From the IMG/VR virus record IMGVR_UViG_3300023179_000527, positions 1 to 23,315 of that record: a DNA stretch of 23,315 nt; one strand, given 5' to 3'. Under the pieces are notes generated by a model. The model was not told where the DNA came from. It saw nothing but the letters and a program-made list of their open reading frames with translations, and did not search any database. Every line of letters begins with the position of its first letter. Positions within the stretch are counted from its first letter, which is position 1. Source of the DNA: a virus. Shown here in pieces: positions 2,617-19,487 of the stretch. The position numbers and the translations under genes are program-made.

Positions 2617-3269
2617 TACCTAAACCGTTTTTGAAGCAGTCCCGATACTGTATTTGGTTGTTGCTGTTGCTCCTGCTGTCGTTGTCCATAGTTGTACAAA
2701 GCTCCAAAGTTAGGAGCCTGTCCCGGTGGATATTGATACATTAGGTTTTGAGGCATATTAGTTTGCAACCTTTGCTGCTCTTCTGGCGATAGTTGCAACA
2801 TGCCATTTTGTATTCCTTGTTGTGGCATACCTTGTGGTCGAAACGCTGGCAAAGTGTAGAATCCAGCTTGGTCTGCCATTCCTGGCATGTTGTTTTGTAA
2901 ACCTTGCGCTCCCTGCGTAGCACCTTGAATTAATTCTTGCATCATACCCTGCGGCATTTCCTGTCGAGGCGTTCCACCTATTCCTTGTGCAATACCTTGA
3001 ATAGCGCCTTGAACCACGCTTTGTGGTTGAGGTTGTCTGTTAGCTTGTCCAGGCAACGGTCGTCCCTTAGAATTTACTAATCCACCATTGGCACCACGAT
3101 ATACGCCAGGGGACAAACGCTGCGGCTTTGGCTGCTTGAAGTTACCCTTATCATCCATCGGCGGCGTTTTCAGTGGAGGCAAAAACCGCTCGTTTTCGGA
3201 TCTAGGTATAGCAATACTTACTCGCCCACCGCCTTTCGGCTCGCTTCTCATCGCAGTTTTTCTAGCCAT
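2616..3269 (-). CDS. Gln/Pro/Met-rich putative ejection-type virion protein
   Basis: A 217-residue protein opening MARKTAMRSEPKGGGR with a basic N-terminus. Next comes a proline-rich stretch with a G-R-x-LP-G-Q element (about residues 69-74), then repeated Q-G-A-(I/T)-Q-G units (about 87-125), and a C-terminal half rich in Gln, Met and Pro that includes a Q-run near residue 197. It looks intrinsically disordered or weakly helical. It lies between the hydrophobic protein at 3271-4395 and the nozzle, and starts one base after the preceding stop. Composition and location suggest a minor internal virion protein; no enzymatic domain is visible. The N-terminal similarity to the protein at 179-1081 suggests a common targeting segment or common ancestry. 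Confidence 0.7.
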   Translation of the reverse strand: MARKTAMRSEPKGGGRVSIAIPRSENERFLPPLKTPPMDDKGNFKQPKPQRLSPGVYRGANGGLVNSKGRPLPGQANRQPQPQSVVQGAIQGIAQGIGGTPRQEMPQGMMQELIQGATQGAQGLQNNMPGMADQAGFYTLPAFRPQGMPQQGIQNGMLQLSPEEQQRLQTNMPQNLMYQYPPGQAPNFGALYNYGQRQQEQQQQPNTVSGLLQKRFR

Positions 3270-3270
3270 G

Positions 3271-4395
3271 TTAATCCTTTTTCAAATACTGTTGTAACGT
3301 GTCTCTAATTGATTTGCTTTTCTCTTTACCTTCTGGCGTTGAGACTTGTGGCGTTTTTACCGGCGGGACAACCTGCCTACCTTTAGGCATCGGTGGTAAA
3401 GCAACGCCAGCTTGCTTAGCAAACGTAGAGTTACCGAGCATAGCGTTAATGTTCGCCAAAATATCTTCTTCGCTTTTAGCGTTAGAGGTGACAGCATTTA
3501 CAAGCATACCTGTATACTGCTCAGGCTTTAGCTTGCCGTCAGAATCTTTGTAAATGTTAGCGATCATGGGATTAATTTTATCCACGGCAAATTTTGCCAA
3601 TGGATTAGAAAAGTCTACATCCCAAGCATTTCTAGAGGTTTTGCCGTCGATATTTTTACCAACGTTTTTATATTTGGTCTTACCATCGAATCCAATGTTG
3701 AATTGAGAACCATCGGCAAGAGTTACATTGTATTTATCATCTGCAACGCCTGTTTCTTTAAGCAAGCCACGGAAATCATCTCGCAAAAGCTGAGCATCTG
3801 ATTTGCCAGTTGTCATCATTTTGCCAATGGATCGTTTGCCCATTAGGCGTAGCGCAAGGTTTGGAAGTCCACCTCCTGCAAAATTTACGCCTGTATTGAT
3901 CCAATCTTCTCTTGTTCCTCGGCCACGAAGAATATCCTTCATGCCTGTTTCCCACAGATTATTTAACCCCAAGCCAATTATTGCCGCTGGCAAAGCTACA
4001 GATCCTATGGCACCTAGTGTACTTGTTCCCGCAGCAGCTCCTCCAGCTCCAGCCGTTCCAGCACCAGCAGTAGAAGCTGCTCCTCCACCTACGAGTTTAG
4101 CTCCAACAAGTGTTGGAGTTGCCGGTGCTGCACCACTTGAAAACAATCCAGCAATAGCTGGAACGCCTTTTGTTACAGCTAACGTGCCACCTACCATGCC
4201 GCCTGTTTGAGCAAGGGTGTTCTTCAACTGCTGGTCAGCGGCTTCCTTTTGCATTTGGTCAGGAGACTTAGGAGCGCCAAAACGATTCTGCACTTCCTGT
4301 GCCGCTTGCAACGGCGACATACCTTGAGTTTGAAGCCAAAGATAATATGCCTTTGGGTCAGATTCTGTTAATGCTGGTGCTTGTTGTGGTGCCAT
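3271..4395 (-). CDS. Putative membrane-interacting ejection protein with a Gly/Ala-rich hydrophobic core
   Basis: The protein has 374 residues from ATG 4395 (MAPQQAPALT). An in-frame TTG 12 bases earlier is less likely because it lies inside the previous gene. The N-terminal helix (about 10-65) contains MSPLQAAQEVQNRFG. A long hydrophobic Gly/Ala region follows (about 66-155, with GGMVGGTLAVTKGVPAIAGLF and VALPAAIIGLGLNNLW), then a soluble charged domain and a basic C-terminus ending in QYLKKD. Glycine/alanine hydrophobic stretches of this kind occur in phage proteins that enter or cross the host envelope during DNA delivery. That function is inferred. The gene sits directly after the adaptor gene and before another ejection-type gene. 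Confidence 0.7.
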   Translation of the reverse strand: MAPQQAPALTESDPKAYYLWLQTQGMSPLQAAQEVQNRFGAPKSPDQMQKEAADQQLKNTLAQTGGMVGGTLAVTKGVPAIAGLFSSGAAPATPTLVGAKLVGGGAASTAGAGTAGAGGAAAGTSTLGAIGSVALPAAIIGLGLNNLWETGMKDILRGRGTREDWINTGVNFAGGGLPNLALRLMGKRSIGKMMTTGKSDAQLLRDDFRGLLKETGVADDKYNVTLADGSQFNIGFDGKTKYKNVGKNIDGKTSRNAWDVDFSNPLAKFAVDKINPMIANIYKDSDGKLKPEQYTGMLVNAVTSNAKSEEDILANINAMLGNSTFAKQAGVALPPMPKGRQVVPPVKTPQVSTPEGKEKSKSIRDTLQQYLKKD

Positions 4396-12675: not shown

Positions 12676-15245
12676 TAGTCGATTTCCTCAATATCAATTC
12701 CAACAGGATTACCTTGGTCATCCATTACAATCTTGCCACGCTTCTTACGAGCTTTCTTCTTCTCTCGCTCAACAATTACAGGCTTATCGCTCTGAAACAT
12801 GATGGATTGCGCTGGCTGTCTATCAATGGCTTCCATCGACAACCGAAGCCGCTCAATTTGCTGTTCAGAAGCTAATCGCCTTTCTTCCATGAGCTTTTCA
12901 GACTCAGATAGCTTAATACGCATCTGCTCAAGCTCAAGTTTCTGAATATCAAGAATCTGCGCCATGCGATTAGTTTCTTGAGTAATAGCTTGCTTATTAG
13001 CATCGGACTCAGACATCGCCTGAACTTTAAGCATATCAACCTGAACGGATGATTGCTTAACCTGAACCTCTTGTTGAGCGAGTGCAAGTTCTTGCTGCTT
13101 CATGTACTCCTCAACTTGTTGCTTCTGAATAGCAAGCTGAGCATCAAGCTGGTCACGCTGCATTTTGAGCTGCTGCTCTTGGTATGCAAGCTGATTCTTG
13201 GTCGCCTTATCTTGCATCTCCATTTGCATGACTTGAATCTTAGCTTGAGACTCAACTTGTGCTATTTGTAGACGCCCCTGTACCTCAAGCGTTGTCGGGT
13301 CCGGAGGCGGCGGTTGCTTAGCTGCCTCTTCCTTAGCTTTCGCAATTTCTCCAATTTGCTGCATAGCCTTCGTAAAAATGCCATCTAGCTCCTTGCCTCC
13401 CTTCATTCGTTTAATCATGTTCTGGAACAAGGATAAGCTAAAATCCAAAAGCGGTGGATATTGCTCAACCAAACCACGCATTTGGTCGAAGAACATTCCA
13501 GCTTTTTCAATCAGCATAGCGCCATCTTGCTGCTGCTGCTGTTGGTCGATAGCAACCATGCTGTCGGAAGCAATTTGGATGCGGTAATTGCGCTGCTTAT
13601 TGTCACGCAGAATACCCATTACCTGCTGCTTCATATCCTCAAGAAGCTGTTGTGGGTCTGGCTGCGGTGGTGCCATTGGTGGCATCGGAGCCATACCTGT
13701 ATCACCAGGTGGCATACCCTCTGGACCAGGCTCCGGCATTGGAGGAGGTGGGGGAATGTAAATAGTTGGTTCAATCAGAACATTAGCATCGCCAACATCC
13801 ATGATTGTTTCTTCCTCAAATTGTTCCGCAATAATCGTGCCAAGATTGCTAATGGCATCTGACACAAACTTGCTAAACATATTCTGGCGAACTACCAAAC
13901 CAAGTGACGACCACTGATTTTCGAGCCGATTAGCCGTAGCCGACTTATATTGCTCGCTTGTGCCACGAAGCAAATCAGATACTTTGAGCGTTTCGTAAAG
14001 CTGCTGCAAAGCTGTCTGTCGAGCGCCTTGAAGCACGTTAAGAGCATTTACGAATGGCTCTACTGGGTAGAACTCCATGCCAGCTCCCATACCACCACGA
14101 CCCTTGTAAGACGGCCAGTTGGTTACTGGAGTACCTTTTAAGTCGCCAGAGAACACTTGCTCTACCTGCTGACCCATAGCAGCGTCGTAAAGGAAGTTAG
14201 TTCTAATGGCTTGGGTTACAGCGTGAATACGGGTAGTAAGACGCTCAACCTCAAGGATTTGGTCTTTTACGTGAGCATAATCAGAAACTGGAATTACGCT
14301 ATCTGGGTCGCATGACTGCCTGATAACCGAACATGGATAGAACCGCTCAAACTTAGTTGGCGGCTCAGACGACTCAATAATTGGCTTTTCGCCGTTCTTC
14401 TGAAGCCAGTAAACCTTGTTAGTCGCTTCGCACCAAATCTCGTGCAGCTCAGCTTTCCCTTCGTATTTATCCTCATTACGAGATATGTCTTTCTTAATTA
14501 TTTCGGGGAACGAATCGTAGGTTAGATCGTCAGCAACTTCACGGCCAAACAGCTCCTCTGCTTGCATCCTATCCAGGAACGCCTTTCTTGATTGCCATTC
14601 AATCTCGCTTTCATTACGAGCGTCAGAACAGTCATAATCGTTGTATTGAACAATATCTAAGATAGCTTTTTCGCTTACTTTCTTCTCAATCTCTAATGAC
14701 GCTATAAAAAGATTGCTTCCCGCTGGTTGAAGTATTTCAGTATCGCCTGTGTATGGCTGACCAGTGCCATCAATTAGCTGACCGCTTGGGTCTTTGATTA
14801 CAGCTATCTCTTGGAATACCTTCTCAAACTTGGCAGCGTACCTTGCCCAAAGCACACCTTGACCCGTGAGCAAAAACTGTAGTGCAGCGTTATAACCTAC
14901 CTTGTCAAAGTCAAAGTGCATATCCATAGCGTACTGGGTGTTACGCTCTAGAATTACGCTACCAAGTTCATACGGTATTCCGCCTGTACGCTTGCGGAGA
15001 TTTACTTCTGCCTTGGGAGTTGAAGAGTAAAAAGCAGGAAGCAAAGTATTAATACAATACCACCAAACATTAAGTCGTCGTTCCGCATCGTTAAGAATTC
15101 CTACCTTCTTCTGAGCGTTATAAACACGGATTGATTCTTCTGCGGCTTCTATGAACTTTTTGCGGCGTTCTTGGGATTGAGTAATTTGCGACTTCCACCA
15201 GCGAGGCGAGTATTTCTGAACCAGTGGCTTAATCTTTACACTCAT
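12675..15245 (-). CDS. Portal protein (P22-like) with long proline hinge and coiled-coil C-terminus
   Basis: The 856-residue product directly follows terL in an ATGA overlap. The N-terminal portion has RRLNVWWYCINTLLPAFY (about 57-74) and later DYDCSDARN, ELHEIWCEATNKVYWLQKNG, RFYPCSVIRQSCDPDSVIPV and RTNFLYDAAMG, the pattern of P22-type portals. A proline block (about 520-560, PPPPPMPEPGPEG onward) acts as a hinge. It is followed by a glutamine run near 590 and a roughly 200-residue Gln/Lys/Glu coiled coil (about 650-810) with a basic end, KKKARKKRGK. It forms the DNA entry ring at one capsid vertex and nucleates the head. At 856 residues it is longer than P22 gp1 (725). Confidence 0.88.
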   Translation of the reverse strand: MSVKIKPLVQKYSPRWWKSQITQSQERRKKFIEAAEESIRVYNAQKKVGILNDAERRLNVWWYCINTLLPAFYSSTPKAEVNLRKRTGGIPYELGSVILERNTQYAMDMHFDFDKVGYNAALQFLLTGQGVLWARYAAKFEKVFQEIAVIKDPSGQLIDGTGQPYTGDTEILQPAGSNLFIASLEIEKKVSEKAILDIVQYNDYDCSDARNESEIEWQSRKAFLDRMQAEELFGREVADDLTYDSFPEIIKKDISRNEDKYEGKAELHEIWCEATNKVYWLQKNGEKPIIESSEPPTKFERFYPCSVIRQSCDPDSVIPVSDYAHVKDQILEVERLTTRIHAVTQAIRTNFLYDAAMGQQVEQVFSGDLKGTPVTNWPSYKGRGGMGAGMEFYPVEPFVNALNVLQGARQTALQQLYETLKVSDLLRGTSEQYKSATANRLENQWSSLGLVVRQNMFSKFVSDAISNLGTIIAEQFEEETIMDVGDANVLIEPTIYIPPPPPMPEPGPEGMPPGDTGMAPMPPMAPPQPDPQQLLEDMKQQVMGILRDNKQRNYRIQIASDSMVAIDQQQQQQDGAMLIEKAGMFFDQMRGLVEQYPPLLDFSLSLFQNMIKRMKGGKELDGIFTKAMQQIGEIAKAKEEAAKQPPPPDPTTLEVQGRLQIAQVESQAKIQVMQMEMQDKATKNQLAYQEQQLKMQRDQLDAQLAIQKQQVEEYMKQQELALAQQEVQVKQSSVQVDMLKVQAMSESDANKQAITQETNRMAQILDIQKLELEQMRIKLSESEKLMEERRLASEQQIERLRLSMEAIDRQPAQSIMFQSDKPVIVEREKKKARKKRGKIVMDDQGNPVGIDIEEID

Positions 15246-17524
15246 ATTTTCGCTCTTTTATGTTGTGATCGCATCTGCGCTATATACGCCTGTAGCTTAA
15301 TCTTCCCCTTGTTGAATACTTCGGCTGGCTGCTCCCACTTAGCGTCAATAAGCCTCCCTTTGCACAAATAGCGCAAGGCATCGCAGTTATGAGACACAAC
15401 CCCGTTAGCTAATACGAAGGTACTTGTAGCTGGCACATTTAGGCAATAGACATCTTGCGAGGCTTCGGAATAAGAGATGGATTTAACCGCCTTCGTCGTG
15501 CGCTCATCTTGCAGTTCTGGTGACAGTACAGGCTTTTCTTGGCCATGTGCTTCTTTGTCTGATACTCCGCTCCGCAAAAGGCGCAAACCTTGGTTATGTA
15601 CGGCATGTTCTTCGCAATTCGTATTGCATGTTCCGAATGCCATTCCCGACCCTGCAAACTCCGATGCCATAACCTCGCCATTGGCACAGCATTTTTGATT
15701 ATGTTCTCGGTTGCTTGTGCACACCGCTCTGGCGTCATGTGATGACTCAAATGAGTCTTTGAGTCTAACAATTCTAAGTTCTCTATTTGATTGTTGGCTC
15801 GATTCTGGTCTTTGTGATGAATGTGCATCCCTTTCGGAATATCGCCGTTGAAGTATTCCCAAACCTTCCTGTGCAGTCGCCTTGAGCCACGAAAATGCTT
15901 TTGCTGGGAAGAAAAGTAATTCCCGCAGCGATAATACTTTACGCCGTTGAACTCTTGGATAGTCTCGGAAATAATTACCACTCGCATATGTAACGCAGCG
16001 TATCAGGCGGCCAGAGGATAGAAAAGCCGCTTTTTCAAATGTGCCATCAGGCAGCATAAACTTGTGGTCGTAAGTACAAATTACGCTCGTATCATCATCA
16101 AAAGTGATACGCATAACTGCGGCTTGCTTTTTGGTTAAAGCACCGCATGCTTCTTGATAATTGCCGTCATGAGATAGAACAAATACAGAAAAATCACCGC
16201 AAAGTTCTTTTATTGGAATTGCACCAGAATCAGTAATGACAAGCGTATCGCCAGTAAGACAGGCGTGGTCATTACCAGTCGAATCAGCATCTTCTGGGTT
16301 TCTTTTGTCTATAGACAAGGATGGTAGGGTTTCTAAAAGATATGGGCAAGTAGCAAATATGTACAACATCGGGGGGTTGGCAACCAATCGTTGCCTGATT
16401 TGGGACCATCCCGAAACTCGCTCGTTATCAGCAGCTCTAAAGCTAGGGAACTTATATTTAGCAAATATTGTTGTGAACTGGTCAGCTATGCTTGGACCAC
16501 CTTCATGGTTGAAGATACTGGGGTCGGCAAAGGCTAGTGGATTTTCTCCGACTGATACTGATCCAATTCGATTAGCCTGATCAATGTTATCAACTCCTTT
16601 TCCCCACATTTCTCTGTAAATAACGATGGCTCCTTTGGGGTACGGAACTTCATTTCCATGGTCGTCACGGCCAGAGCTGACAGCACCCCAGACAGCAGCA
16701 AAAGGAGAGCGGTAACCCCAATCGTACCCCAAGTATCGGGGCCAGTGTTTAGGAACATTGAAAGGAGCAACGATATGTTTAGAAGAAAACTCAGGAAAGT
16801 AGGAGCCTTCATGGATTTCAAAATCCCCCTCTAGCCATGCTCTGACAAGCTCAGGTGAACCTACCATGTGCAATCGGTTTATGTACTCAGGGTCTCTAGC
16901 CAGAAGTATCTGGTTATCGTGAACCCTGCTTGGAATGTAAATGTAGTCGAAGCTGGCTCCGTTAGGTAGGAGCTTTTGTAGCACCTTCATCCCCTTTGGC
17001 GCTGGCTTGATAAACAGCTCTTTTAGCCAGCCGTGGCCGACACCGCCTGGGTTAAATGTAAGGAGAATTTGACCGCCGCCTTTACCTCGCAACGCTCCGA
17101 ATAGCTTCCATATACAGCTTGGGTCAGAGTAGTTACCTGCCTCTTCTATGGCGCAATCTGAGAGGTTTTGACCCTGGTATTTTTCGGCATCAGCGTCATT
17201 AGCCAAGGGACGAAATCGCAATCGTCCCCCACTTGGGAATGTGAACTGCTTCTTTTGGTCTTGCCAGTGCGCTCTGAGCGGCAAGTAAATTTGCTTAGCT
17301 CGCTCAATTAAGTCATCTGCTTGAGGTAGCTCTTTACGGAAGAATATAGCGTTAAAGTCTGCGCCTAACTGTTCTTGCTTGATAGCGAACTTACCCAAAA
17401 CGCCGTCAGTTTTACCGCCGCCTCGTGCGCCGCCATAGCCGACTAAAGTAATGGGACAATGAACTAGAGCTTCCTGGGGTCCGATCTGTGGGCACCATAT
17501 GATTTTTTCATCAATCTTTTCCAT
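15242..17524 (-). CDS. terL: Terminase large subunit precursor containing an intein
   Basis: The 760-residue precursor would splice to a 468-residue packaging motor. Residues 1-421: Walker A GGARGGGKT (31-39), Walker B region LSDCAIEEAGN (121-131), coupling motif LTFNPGG, and the nuclease domain beginning YLGYDWGY. The intein occupies residues 422-713, and the remainder (CDALRYLCKGRL) completes the nuclease motif DHA-CDALRY, whose Asp belongs to the metal site. The protein pumps DNA into the procapsid with ATP and cuts concatemers. The start at ATG 17524 lies three bases after the HNH gene stop and has only a weak Shine-Dalgarno. The stop overlaps the portal ATG. Activity should depend on intein removal. 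Confidence 0.92.
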   Translation of the reverse strand: MEKIDEKIIWCPQIGPQEALVHCPITLVGYGGARGGGKTDGVLGKFAIKQEQLGADFNAIFFRKELPQADDLIERAKQIYLPLRAHWQDQKKQFTFPSGGRLRFRPLANDADAEKYQGQNLSDCAIEEAGNYSDPSCIWKLFGALRGKGGGQILLTFNPGGVGHGWLKELFIKPAPKGMKVLQKLLPNGASFDYIYIPSRVHDNQILLARDPEYINRLHMVGSPELVRAWLEGDFEIHEGSYFPEFSSKHIVAPFNVPKHWPRYLGYDWGYRSPFAAVWGAVSSGRDDHGNEVPYPKGAIVIYREMWGKGVDNIDQANRIGSVSVGENPLAFADPSIFNHEGGPSIADQFTTIFAKYKFPSFRAADNERVSGWSQIRQRLVANPPMLYIFATCPYLLETLPSLSIDKRNPEDADSTGNDHACLTGDTLVITDSGAIPIKELCGDFSVFVLSHDGNYQEACGALTKKQAAVMRITFDDDTSVICTYDHKFMLPDGTFEKAAFLSSGRLIRCVTYASGNYFRDYPRVQRRKVLSLRELLFFPAKAFSWLKATAQEGLGILQRRYSERDAHSSQRPESSQQSNRELRIVRLKDSFESSHDARAVCTSNREHNQKCCANGEVMASEFAGSGMAFGTCNTNCEEHAVHNQGLRLLRSGVSDKEAHGQEKPVLSPELQDERTTKAVKSISYSEASQDVYCLNVPATSTFVLANGVVSHNCDALRYLCKGRLIDAKWEQPAEVFNKGKIKLQAYIAQMRSQHKRAKI
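15386..16261 (-). other. Intein within terL (292 residues), carrying an out-of-frame endonuclease gene
   Basis: Splicing residues are all visible: Cys1 (CLTGDTLV, block A), the block B motif T63-Y-D-H66, the C-terminal VYCLNVPATSTFVL element, and penultimate His291-Asn292 followed by Cys as the +1 residue. About residues 1-91 form the N-terminal splicing half and about 258-292 the C-terminal half. The 165 residues between are hydrophilic and Ser/Arg/Glu/Gln-rich with no recognisable domain, and this is the region whose DNA encodes an HNH endonuclease in the +1 frame. The frame has no stop, so a full precursor is made. The insertion point splits the most conserved nuclease motif of TerL, a preferred site for such elements. 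Confidence 0.9.
15439..15987 (-). CDS. HNH homing endonuclease encoded out of frame inside the terL intein
   Basis: An ATG at 15987 opens a 182-codon frame shifted +1 from terL. The product shows a convincing HNH domain: RRLHRKVWEYFNG (36-48), IPKGMHIHHKDQNRANNQIE (50-69) and NLELL (70-74), with H57/H58, N65/N66 and N70, then H79. A GREWHSEHA segment (113-121) follows, and a zinc ribbon, C135-x2-C138 and C155-x3-C159, ends in RRRR. This is the layout of phage homing nucleases. A stop (TGA) precedes the ATG by five codons and no Shine-Dalgarno is seen, so how it is translated is open: weak internal initiation or +1 frameshifting from the intein. It presumably cuts intein-less terL alleles to drive homing. 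Confidence 0.85.
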   Translation of the reverse strand: MRVVIISETIQEFNGVKYYRCGNYFSSQQKHFRGSRRLHRKVWEYFNGDIPKGMHIHHKDQNRANNQIENLELLDSKTHLSHHMTPERCAQATENIIKNAVPMARLWHRSLQGREWHSEHAIRIAKNMPYITKVCAFCGAEYQTKKHMAKKSLYCHQNCKMSARRRRLNPSLIPKPRKMSIA

Positions 17525-17527
17525 ATG

Positions 17528-18064
17528 TTAAGCCACTATTTTCCACTTTTTATTTGTGACTATATTGTGAATATGTTTGCCATCTACGCCATATTTGGCA
17601 CCTAAACTGCGTGTTGTATGCCCACCTTCAGCGTACAACTTTCTTATTTCTAAAACTTGCTCTGGTTTTAGTTTTGCGTGTTTGTTTTTTGATCCAAACC
17701 ACGTGCGTCCCTTTAACGCCATATCTTTCATGTTGTCTTGATGTGTTCCTAAAAACAAATGATCAGGATTTACGCATTGAGGATTATCGCATTTGTGCAA
17801 AACGTGTTTATCGCCAATCGGACCCTTGCAAAACTCATATAGCAAACGATGCGGTTTATATTGCTTGCGATTATCTCTGTTACCTTTTTCTCGGATAATA
17901 AATGTTCCGTACCCGTTTTTTCTTCCAAGCGTTCCAATCCAATAATGACAATCGCTAAATGGGATTTGAATTATAAATCTATTTAATCGCTCTAAAATGT
18001 GTTCTTTGCTGTACCCTAATATCATGCGGTCCACCATAGCAGTACCACACTTATTTGTCAGCAT
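17528..18064 (-). CDS. Free-standing HNH homing endonuclease upstream of terL
   Basis: The product has 178 residues from ATG 18064, which overlaps the upstream stop as ATGCTGA; a longer in-frame start at 18106 would lie within the zinc-ribbon gene. The core includes YWIGTLGRKNGYGTF, the first motif KPHRLLYEFCKGPIG, and VLHKCDNPQCVNPDHLFLG followed by THQDNM, which carries the His-Asn-His catalytic set. The C-terminus (KLKPEQVLEIRKLYAEGG, then SLGAKYGVDGKHIHNIV) is a helix-turn-helix DNA-recognition module. This architecture is that of mobile homing nucleases rather than the HK97 gp74-type packaging HNH proteins, although position next to terL leaves a packaging role possible. It ends three bases before terL. 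Confidence 0.88.
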   Translation of the reverse strand: MLTNKCGTAMVDRMILGYSKEHILERLNRFIIQIPFSDCHYWIGTLGRKNGYGTFIIREKGNRDNRKQYKPHRLLYEFCKGPIGDKHVLHKCDNPQCVNPDHLFLGTHQDNMKDMALKGRTWFGSKNKHAKLKPEQVLEIRKLYAEGGHTTRSLGAKYGVDGKHIHNIVTNKKWKIVA

Positions 18065-18231
18065 CCATTCTTTAGCTTCTTGCACTCTGACCAAAACTCT
18101 TCCCAAGTTAGCTCGGATAGCTCTTTAACAAACTCTTTCTCGCACTCTACGCAGTAGTTAGTGCCTAGCTCCCATAAGCCACCACACTCGGGACACTTCC
18201 AATGGCCGCTAGTTTCCGTATCTTTTAACAT
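18058..18231 (-). CDS. Small zinc-ribbon protein (57 residues)
   Basis: ATG at 18231 lies within the end of the upstream zinc-finger gene (23-base overlap). The product begins MLKDTETSGHWKCPECGG and has C13-x2-C16 and C27-x2-C30 (NYCVECEKEF), a four-cysteine zinc ribbon, then an acidic/aromatic tail, LTWEEFWSECKKLKNGC. It is probably a DNA- or protein-binding accessory; no partner is evident. Its stop overlaps the HNH gene start, so the endonuclease seems to have been inserted between this gene and terL. Confidence 0.65.
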   Translation of the reverse strand: MLKDTETSGHWKCPECGGLWELGTNYCVECEKEFVKELSELTWEEFWSECKKLKNGC

Positions 18232-18720: not shown

Positions 18721-18856
18721 TATCTTTTAGCTCTTTTAATAATTGTTTTAATACCTCTTCTGCAATTTCTTCACAAAGATTGAACAGACATTCTTCAATA
18801 GTCATGCCAAGAATGTCTTTAAGTGTAATGCGAACTGATTCTTCAGGTGTTTTCAT
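18695..18856 (-). CDS. Small helical protein (53 residues) sharing the MKTPE start with its neighbours
   Basis: ATG at 18856 overlaps the DUF551 gene stop as TAATG, with GGAGG upstream. The product opens MKTPEESVRITLKDILG and continues as an acidic amphipathic helix, EECLFNLCEEIAEEVLKQLL, ending NKKDD. The first 15 bases are identical to those of the genes starting at 19487 and 19663, which points to duplication of the gene start. Function is unknown. Confidence 0.6.
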   Translation of the reverse strand: MKTPEESVRITLKDILGMTIEECLFNLCEEIAEEVLKQLLKELKDNEDNKKDD

Positions 18857-19158
18857 TATTCCTCCGGTGGCTCAGGCAGCGGCATCCAGTGGGTAACTTC
18901 TACAATTTCATCAACTTCGCCATCGTACCCAATAATATCATATCCCTTCCACCAAAATTCATCTGCTATTGGAATAGATCCATAAATGCGACGCCTTTTA
19001 AGCATGGCTGGCTCAACAAATCGACAAGTTTGCAAAGATGGTCTACCATATACCAATACCTGTTCCTCTATTTCCGGCAACCTATCCTTTACAGAGATCC
19101 AGTTGTTAAGAGTTTCTGAACTACTAACCATTCTATTTTGCATTGATTGATCGTTCAC
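18856..19158 (-). CDS. DUF551 family protein
   Basis: The 100-residue product starts at GTG 19158, in a GTGA overlap and preceded by GGAGGAAAA. WISVKDRLPEIEEQVLVYG (about 20-38) and the end EIVEVTHWMPLPEPPEE are the two ends of the DUF551 domain, a small phage and bacterial family of unknown function. The same 21-bp sequence encodes the HWMPLP region here and in the next DUF551 gene, so the pair arose by a fairly recent duplication. Here the domain has a short unrelated N-terminus rather than the MKTPE module. Confidence 0.8.
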   Translation of the reverse strand: MNDQSMQNRMVSSSETLNNWISVKDRLPEIEEQVLVYGRPSLQTCRFVEPAMLKRRRIYGSIPIADEFWWKGYDIIGYDGEVDEIVEVTHWMPLPEPPEE

Positions 19159-19487
19159 TTTTCCTCCTTCGGCGGCTTAGGCAGCGGCATCCAGTGGGTG
19201 ACGCCTTCTACAGTATCGTCATACTTGTCACAAAAAACTGTTCGTCCAAAATAAGCAACATCGTAATCATGCCAACCGTTACCGCTAATGAGTACAAGCA
19301 CATTTCCCTCCTTTGGCTTCGGCAACCTATCCTTCACCGAGATCCAACCGTTCGAATTATTCGAAGAGTTCATCTGATCCTGTGCGGCTTGGTAGCCAGC
19401 GAAGAAAGAGTATTTACTACACAGATAGCTATCGCTTTCTATGTATGCTTGAGCATACTCCTCTGCCAACTCTTCAGGTGTTTTCAT
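19155..19487 (-). CDS. Two-module protein: MKTPE helical module fused to a DUF551 domain
   Basis: The 110-residue product starts at ATG 19487 in an ATGA overlap with GAGGAAA upstream. Residues 1-40 (MKTPEELAEEYAQ ... FFAGYQAAQDQM) match the whole plan of the neighbouring 59-residue protein, and residues about 47-110 (WISVKDRLPKPKEGNVLVLI ... VTHWMPLPKPP) are DUF551, matching the other neighbour. The gene therefore looks like the fused form of two modules that also exist separately on either side. Function is unknown. Confidence 0.8.
   Translation of the reverse strand: MKTPEELAEEYAQAYIESDSYLCSKYSFFAGYQAAQDQMNSSNNSNGWISVKDRLPKPKEGNVLVLISGNGWHDYDVAYFGRTVFCDKYDDTVEGVTHWMPLPKPPKEEK

Follow-up and report, generated by a model that had tools for sequence, protein, structure and literature searches.

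The large terminase gene (terL) of this phage very probably houses a mobile intein whose homing endonuclease has a gene of its own, located within the intein linker but in another reading frame. Both frames match known protein families, the same overlap recurs in relatives assembled independently, and near-identical terL alleles are found with and without the insertion.

Organization of the terL locus

In the window (the whole 23,315-nt stretch of DNA analysed), the terL ORF (15242–17524; 760 aa; PHROG 2, terminase large subunit, 1.5e-37) is uninterrupted from start to stop; it and all other features described here lie on the minus strand. The N-extein (TerL residues 1–421; 16262–17524) ends in GNDHA and the C-extein (residues 714–760; 15245–15385) begins with CDALRY (RNase-H-like nuclease motif), placing the 292-residue intein (Cys1 to His291-Asn292, +1 residue Cys; 15386–16261) between A421 and C422 of TerL (DHA/CDALRY, slash at the insertion point). 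The intein comprises a single-coded N-terminal splicing block (residues 1–90, with C1 and T63xxH66; 15992–16261), an overprinted linker (residues 93–247; 15521–15985) and a C-terminal splicing block (residues 255–292; 15386–15499). The nested HNH endonuclease gene (182 aa; 15439–15987) is in the +1 frame relative to terL and the intein, and its last ~22 codons (15442–15507) are dual-coded with the C-terminal splicing block. As terL is one open ORF, the host gene differs from fractured genes with split inteins, which consist of two.

A second, unrelated HNH gene (17528–18106; PHROG 59/1872 type, zf-His_Me-like) begins with TTG and stops 3 nt short of the terL start codon. It occurs in eight of the relatives, some with an empty intein site and some with an occupied one. 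Elsewhere in the window, two adjacent, overlapping ORFs (18856–19158 and 19155–19487) look like tandem paralogues (WISVKDRLP ... THWMPLP motifs).

The intein and the nested HNH nuclease

The initial annotation of this DNA, made from the sequence alone, had proposed a complete 182-residue HNH nuclease in the +1 frame of a splicing-competent intein and suggested profile searches for both; ORF structure, family matches and invariant residues all agree with this proposal. The intein blocks were matched by Pfam Intein_splicing (E 5.5e-11), TIGR01445 (7e-7) and TIGR01443 (1e-6), and the two blocks carry the residues of an intein (Cys/Ser1, TxxH, a C-terminal (H)N and Cys/Ser/Thr at +1), all in the open terL frame, as that annotation had stated. 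Across 48 inteins C1, H66 and N292 never vary, and T63 is likewise invariant or almost invariant. The AlphaFold model of the intein is of high confidence for residues 1–90 (pLDDT 92–97 in the N-terminal block) and ~255–292, with pLDDT >90 in the predicted Hint core, and its structural matches are the DnaB, DnaE and RecA mini-inteins. Residues 93–110 and 134–247 have pLDDT <50 and are separated by two helices (residues 112–134) of low-to-medium confidence, so that most of the linker is predicted to be disordered and without a domain, again as first described. Judged by motifs and predicted fold, the window intein is an intact, class-1-like Hint intein, and it would be expected to splice. It is not a canonical endonuclease-bearing intein, in which the nuclease is an in-frame domain of the intein polypeptide.

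The HNH product matches Pfam HNH_3 (2.7e-17) and PHROG 15471 (1e-31) and has the HNH catalytic motif and zinc ribbon of an HNH homing endonuclease. The residues singled out at the outset (H57/H58, N65/N66, N70 and C135/C138/C155/C159), together with D60, are invariant in 38 HNHs down to ~35% identity. The AlphaFold model has a mean pLDDT of 91.9. Among solved structures, the HNH profile matches I-HmuI (PDB 1u3e) alone (E 1e-4), and I-HmuI is also the top, if weak, structural match of the model (E 0.08); it differs from the nested HNH in being intron-encoded. Divergence among relatives at the three codon positions of the HNH frame (0.27, 0.21, 0.51), a comparison proposed with the initial annotation, is typical of purifying selection, under which the HNH protein is placed by these rates.

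Distribution among relatives

An IMG/VR scan with the HNH identified 80 loci, and additional loci came from later scans and from GenBank phages. Profile HMMs, built for the HNH and for each splicing block, were used to sort 113 dereplicated HNH representatives into classes. The +1 nested arrangement of the window was found in 29 and nesting in the -1 frame in 48, while 18 lie in a fractured terL with a split intein, 17 are intein-free and one is accompanied by a single block. In total, 77/113 HNHs occupy another frame of an unbroken intein. The label ‘nested’ needs one open frame across both blocks, so that openness in these classes holds by definition; the meaningful contrasts are with fractured and free-standing HNHs on the one hand and the stop counts expected from shuffling (below) on the other. 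An HNH in frame with the intein was found in none of the 113 dereplicated relatives, including the 95 associated with an intein. The view that the nuclease is a separate overlapping gene rather than an in-frame domain is borne out by dozens of independent contigs with the same overlap. The -1 class, the split-intein relatives, the mini-inteins and the expression signal described below were all missed in the initial annotation.

The host gene of nearly all inteins with this HNH is terL, at the same nuclease motif. Nested HNHs are present in Tetrasphaera phage TJE1, Rhodobacteraceae phage LS06-2018-MD07 and Acinetobacter phage Highwayman, whose records name nothing but terminase there, and in MT838676, a record without annotation. 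In the fractured form (Vibrio phages 1.245.O and 1.238.A, also L056 and L216–L228), the HNH lies between the split-intein halves in terL. A single-protein scan of bacterial genomes gave only three distant matches, Megasphaera cerevisiae DSM 20462 being the source of one. At least 23 changes between the four states (+1 nested, -1 nested, fractured, no intein) are required on the HNH tree, and the starred branches alone force three changes for +1, two for -1, two for fractured and five for no intein; this tree is quick and unrooted, its inner branches are weakly supported, and no order of events, such as nested before fractured or the reverse, is claimed from it.

Several relatives have additional features at or near terL. 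The two Vibrio phages (L165 and L166) carry, in the N-terminal part of TerL near the P-loop, what seems to be another intein, whose long middle region is in frame. In L054, the sequence FANDILVTN upstream of 2789, before the HNH-bearing intein, resembles the end of another intein and suggests two neighbouring inteins in this terL. L290 has a terL intein (3001–4005) before LLIDDPVKDRED (Walker B region), with a weak HNH-family match (E 1e-7) in another frame of its second half, possibly the same nested arrangement at another terL site. Brevundimonas phage Poludnitsa (L161; ON529862) has an unannotated, free-standing HNH of the same family (2938–3513) between terL and portal.

Presence/absence polymorphism and deletion derivatives

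The majority of close terL homologues have an empty site, with neither insert nor HNH. The +1 residue is Cys in every occupied terL aligned, and Cys, Val, Met or Ala in empty ones. One occupied and one empty allele (L012 and L101) differ at 4/900 nt upstream of the site and at 0/127 nt compared downstream; in other occupied/empty pairs the +1 codon is among the positions that differ, as would be consistent with co-conversion. This is the presence/absence polymorphism at one site among near-identical alleles that characterizes homing endonucleases. Three mini-inteins lack the HNH: the 136-aa intein of L157 is nearly identical to that of L034 save for the missing segment, and those of L281 and L282 retain the last ~25–30 HNH codons and the stop, identifying them as deletion derivatives of nested forms. 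Empty, near-identical terL genes and HNH-deleted mini-inteins indicate, from these sequence comparisons, that the element is mobile and the nuclease dispensable.

Stop avoidance and selection in the overlap

The initial annotation had argued that the open intein frame across the HNH gene is not due to chance. This holds, with 0 stops against 12–20 in shuffles, but its chance figure (1.6e-4) was too lenient. When the HNH protein was kept, synonymous codons were drawn from the terL usage of the family and stops were counted in the intein frame, 12.5–19.9 (~16) stops were expected per sequence, compared with none in 22/22 dereplicated relatives. HNH codons ending in T are followed by AA, AG or GA in 0/860 cases (362 expected), while the third, unused frame has the usual 7–12 stops. 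By class, the shuffle expectation is 15.4 stops for +1 and 4.2 for -1 nested HNHs.

In pairs of relatives, identity at 4-fold sites is 0.35–0.59 in HNH codons 1–160 vs 0.34–0.51 in the single-coded N-terminal block, and 0.62–0.77 in HNH codons 161–182, which also encode part of the C-terminal splicing block. On this measure constraint acts on both frames in the final ~22 HNH codons and nowhere else, and the dual coding of the C-terminal splicing block with the nuclease end was correctly recognized from the start. Because 4-fold sites of HNH codons 1–160 diverge like those of the single-coded block, linker amino acids appear unconstrained beyond the absence of stops, in keeping with the original description of the linker as overprinted sequence; selection on the linker amino-acid sequence is unsupported.

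Putative expression signals upstream of the HNH gene

Shine-Dalgarno (SD) initiation was rejected for the +1 nested HNHs: SDs at or below -5 kcal/mol precede 3% of them, compared with 18% of random positions and 100% of the fractured class. Instead, the sequence upstream of their ATGs is unusually conserved. GATA at -17 to -14 is invariant in 23/23, third codon positions included, the Ile codon in this motif is ATA in 23/23 (vs 32% in TerL), and position -10 is always T though the residue encoded varies (C, Y or S). Both the GATA and the T fit TG-n-TAnnnT, i.e. an extended -10 element. Among 191 offsets, the sigma70 score is highest at -15 (6.87; runner-up 2.77), where shuffles preserving the intein protein give 2.34 +/- 0.53 (z 8.6, to be read against an sd of 1.8 for z values across offsets, as the sequences are related).

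The motif was first noticed in close relatives and then tested, making distant lineages the cleaner test. Eight divergent +1 lineages outside the set in which it was noticed (L055, L218, L054, L059, L062, L065, L217 and L229) have -10 elements TACAAT or TACAGT and, in the same place, -35 elements up to TTGACA, with predicted transcription starts 0–3 nt before the ATG (Fisher P 2.5e-8, treating lineages as independent). L051 and L213 have no good promoter match at the -15 place. In the window, a putative extended -10 element (TGATACGCT, TG-n-TAnnnT; 15997–16005) lies 10–18 nt before the HNH ATG, 17 bp from a putative weak -35 element (TTTTCT; 16020–16025), with the predicted start ~3 nt before the ATG. 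These elements (TTTTCT/TACGCT) are weak (protein-preserving shuffle P 0.07) and were not listed by a strict consensus scan of the window. A sigma70-like promoter inside the N-terminal splicing block, strong in distant relatives and weak in the window, would yield a leaderless HNH mRNA.

The -1 class as a group does not have the leaderless signature, and about one third of its members have an SD; L061, L071, L176 and L249 combine an SD with an upstream promoter, while L184 looks leaderless. In one nested -1 clade (e.g. L246, L248, L257 and L271) the nearest HNH ATG is within the N-terminal splicing block (ATG of GGATGGAA), and neither an SD nor a clear promoter was found at that ATG.

Alternative explanations

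The frame offset and the missing SD before the HNH ATG would also be expected if programmed +1 frameshifting from the TerL-intein frame produced the HNH as a TerL-IntN-HNH fusion. In aligned relatives, however, TGA or TAG in the HNH frame 15–18 nt before the ATG confines any shift to a short gap, the ATG is conserved in 28/29 +1 representatives, no relative has an in-frame fusion and the promoter pattern accounts for the conserved nucleotides; this explanation was rejected as improbable. Interruption of terL by an HNH-bearing group I intron, removed by RNA splicing, is suggested by I-HmuI, the nearest solved HNH and itself intron-encoded, but complete intein blocks with conserved Cys1, H66, Asn and +1 Cys, a host frame without stops and a search of the window against Rfam that gave no match make it highly improbable, and it too was rejected. 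Sequencing or assembly indels displacing an ordinary in-frame HNH domain, for which nothing but the unusual arrangement speaks, have a negligible probability. They are refuted by the recurrence of one offset across dozens of contigs from independent assemblies as well as deposited phage genomes, by the existence of two different offsets and by the single frame shared by the intein ends.

Two further explanations, each very unlikely, concern the function of the nuclease. That the HNH is a decaying passenger, with the open intein frame a by-product, would fit the three HNH-less mini-inteins, but catalytic and zinc residues remain invariant in distant relatives, the codon-position pattern points to purifying selection and the HNH model is confident; interrupted HNH frames inside intact inteins were absent from the relatives fetched, among which HNH-based searches favour intact copies. 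Alternatively, the nested HNH could now serve the phage, e.g. in DNA packaging with the terminase, rather than homing: the family often adjoins or sits within terL, and HK97-type HNH nucleases work with terminase (discussed in PMC10448857). The lack of both insert and HNH in most close terL homologues means that it is not essential for packaging, and the presence/absence pattern fits mobility. A homing nuclease encoded out of frame within a mobile intein is the preferred explanation.

Comparison with known systems

Dassa et al. reportedly described, in 2009, fractured genes whose split inteins enclose a free-standing endonuclease. The terL genes of some relatives are alike in having the HNH between N- and C-intein halves, whereas the window intein frame is unbroken, so that splicing in cis would be possible, and its HNH lacks the strong SDs of fractured-class HNHs. 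Canonical inteins with an in-frame homing nuclease include TerL1-b and TerL1-c, from mycobacteriophages BAKA and Bethlehem; TerL inteins of mycobacteriophages are spliced, and their in-frame nucleases are active (PMC5050341). These are likewise mobile elements in terL, with splicing blocks flanking a nuclease-coding middle, but the window nuclease is a polypeptide of its own, encoded in a different frame and with no in-frame case among its relatives, and the insertion site is the TerL nuclease motif rather than the ATPase domain.

The closest precedent is the out-of-frame (‘hidden’) HNH insertion in actinophage DNA methylases, ShiLan-domain and Pacc40 (Arsenault, Gosselin, Gogarten 2025, PMC11855218), so the remark in the initial annotation that no described example was known to it is not quite right, though these cases are without an intein. 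Common features are an HNH out of frame in an open host gene, disjunct distribution, a disordered host-frame product, the lack of a detectable RBS and leaderless initiation, as proposed by its authors. ShiLan and Pacc40 insertions have no intein or intron splicing blocks, whereas the window HNH is inside a complete intein in terL, is partly dual-coded with the C-terminal splicing block and belongs to a family also found between split-intein halves. The same article cites a 2025 preprint by Gosselin, Arsenault and Gogarten (‘Actinobacteriophage Inteins: ... Non-Canonical Architecture’, 10.1101/2025.01.02.630785) for overlapping frames in actinophages and Gorbalenya 1998 (‘Non-canonical inteins’) for overlapping reading frames. 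Judging from the context of these citations, both may describe cases related to the nested HNH intein, and categorical novelty is not claimed.

Proposed mechanism and implications

In the proposed mechanism, the terL frame would be translated straight through and both splicing blocks would fold around the disordered ~155-residue linker and self-excise, restoring TerL at DHA/CDALRY. The +1 frame of the same DNA would encode an I-HmuI-like HNH nuclease, probably transcribed separately from the sigma70-like promoter that lies within the N-terminal splicing block. Its mRNA, with little or no leader, would be translated from the conserved ATG. This nuclease would cut or nick intein-free terL, leading to the whole unit being copied in. 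In-frame deletion of the HNH would leave a mini-intein. As the overlap restricts the linker only to stop avoidance, one stop codon there would convert a nested intein to a split intein in a fractured gene, the arrangement present in relatives.

It is quite conceivable, if somewhat short of probable, that these elements represent a class of phage inteins which is common and perhaps for the most part undescribed, with out-of-frame nested homing nucleases that arose in both alternative frames, the +1 class being expressed via a splicing-block promoter and leaderless mRNA, and that they are plausible intermediates between mini-inteins and fractured phage genes. Such nucleases are easily missed, as in TJE1, LS06-2018-MD07 and Highwayman. 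The arrangement predicts a promoter under constraint within a protein-coding splicing block, and a leaderless message. The locus is a clear case of overlapping frames that encode two functional proteins unrelated to each other, one an autocatalytic splicing element and the other a site-specific nuclease, and the arrangement recurs in both alternative frames. With empty sites, mini-inteins, nested forms and fractured genes all known at one terL motif, a possible route from intact to split inteins is suggested.
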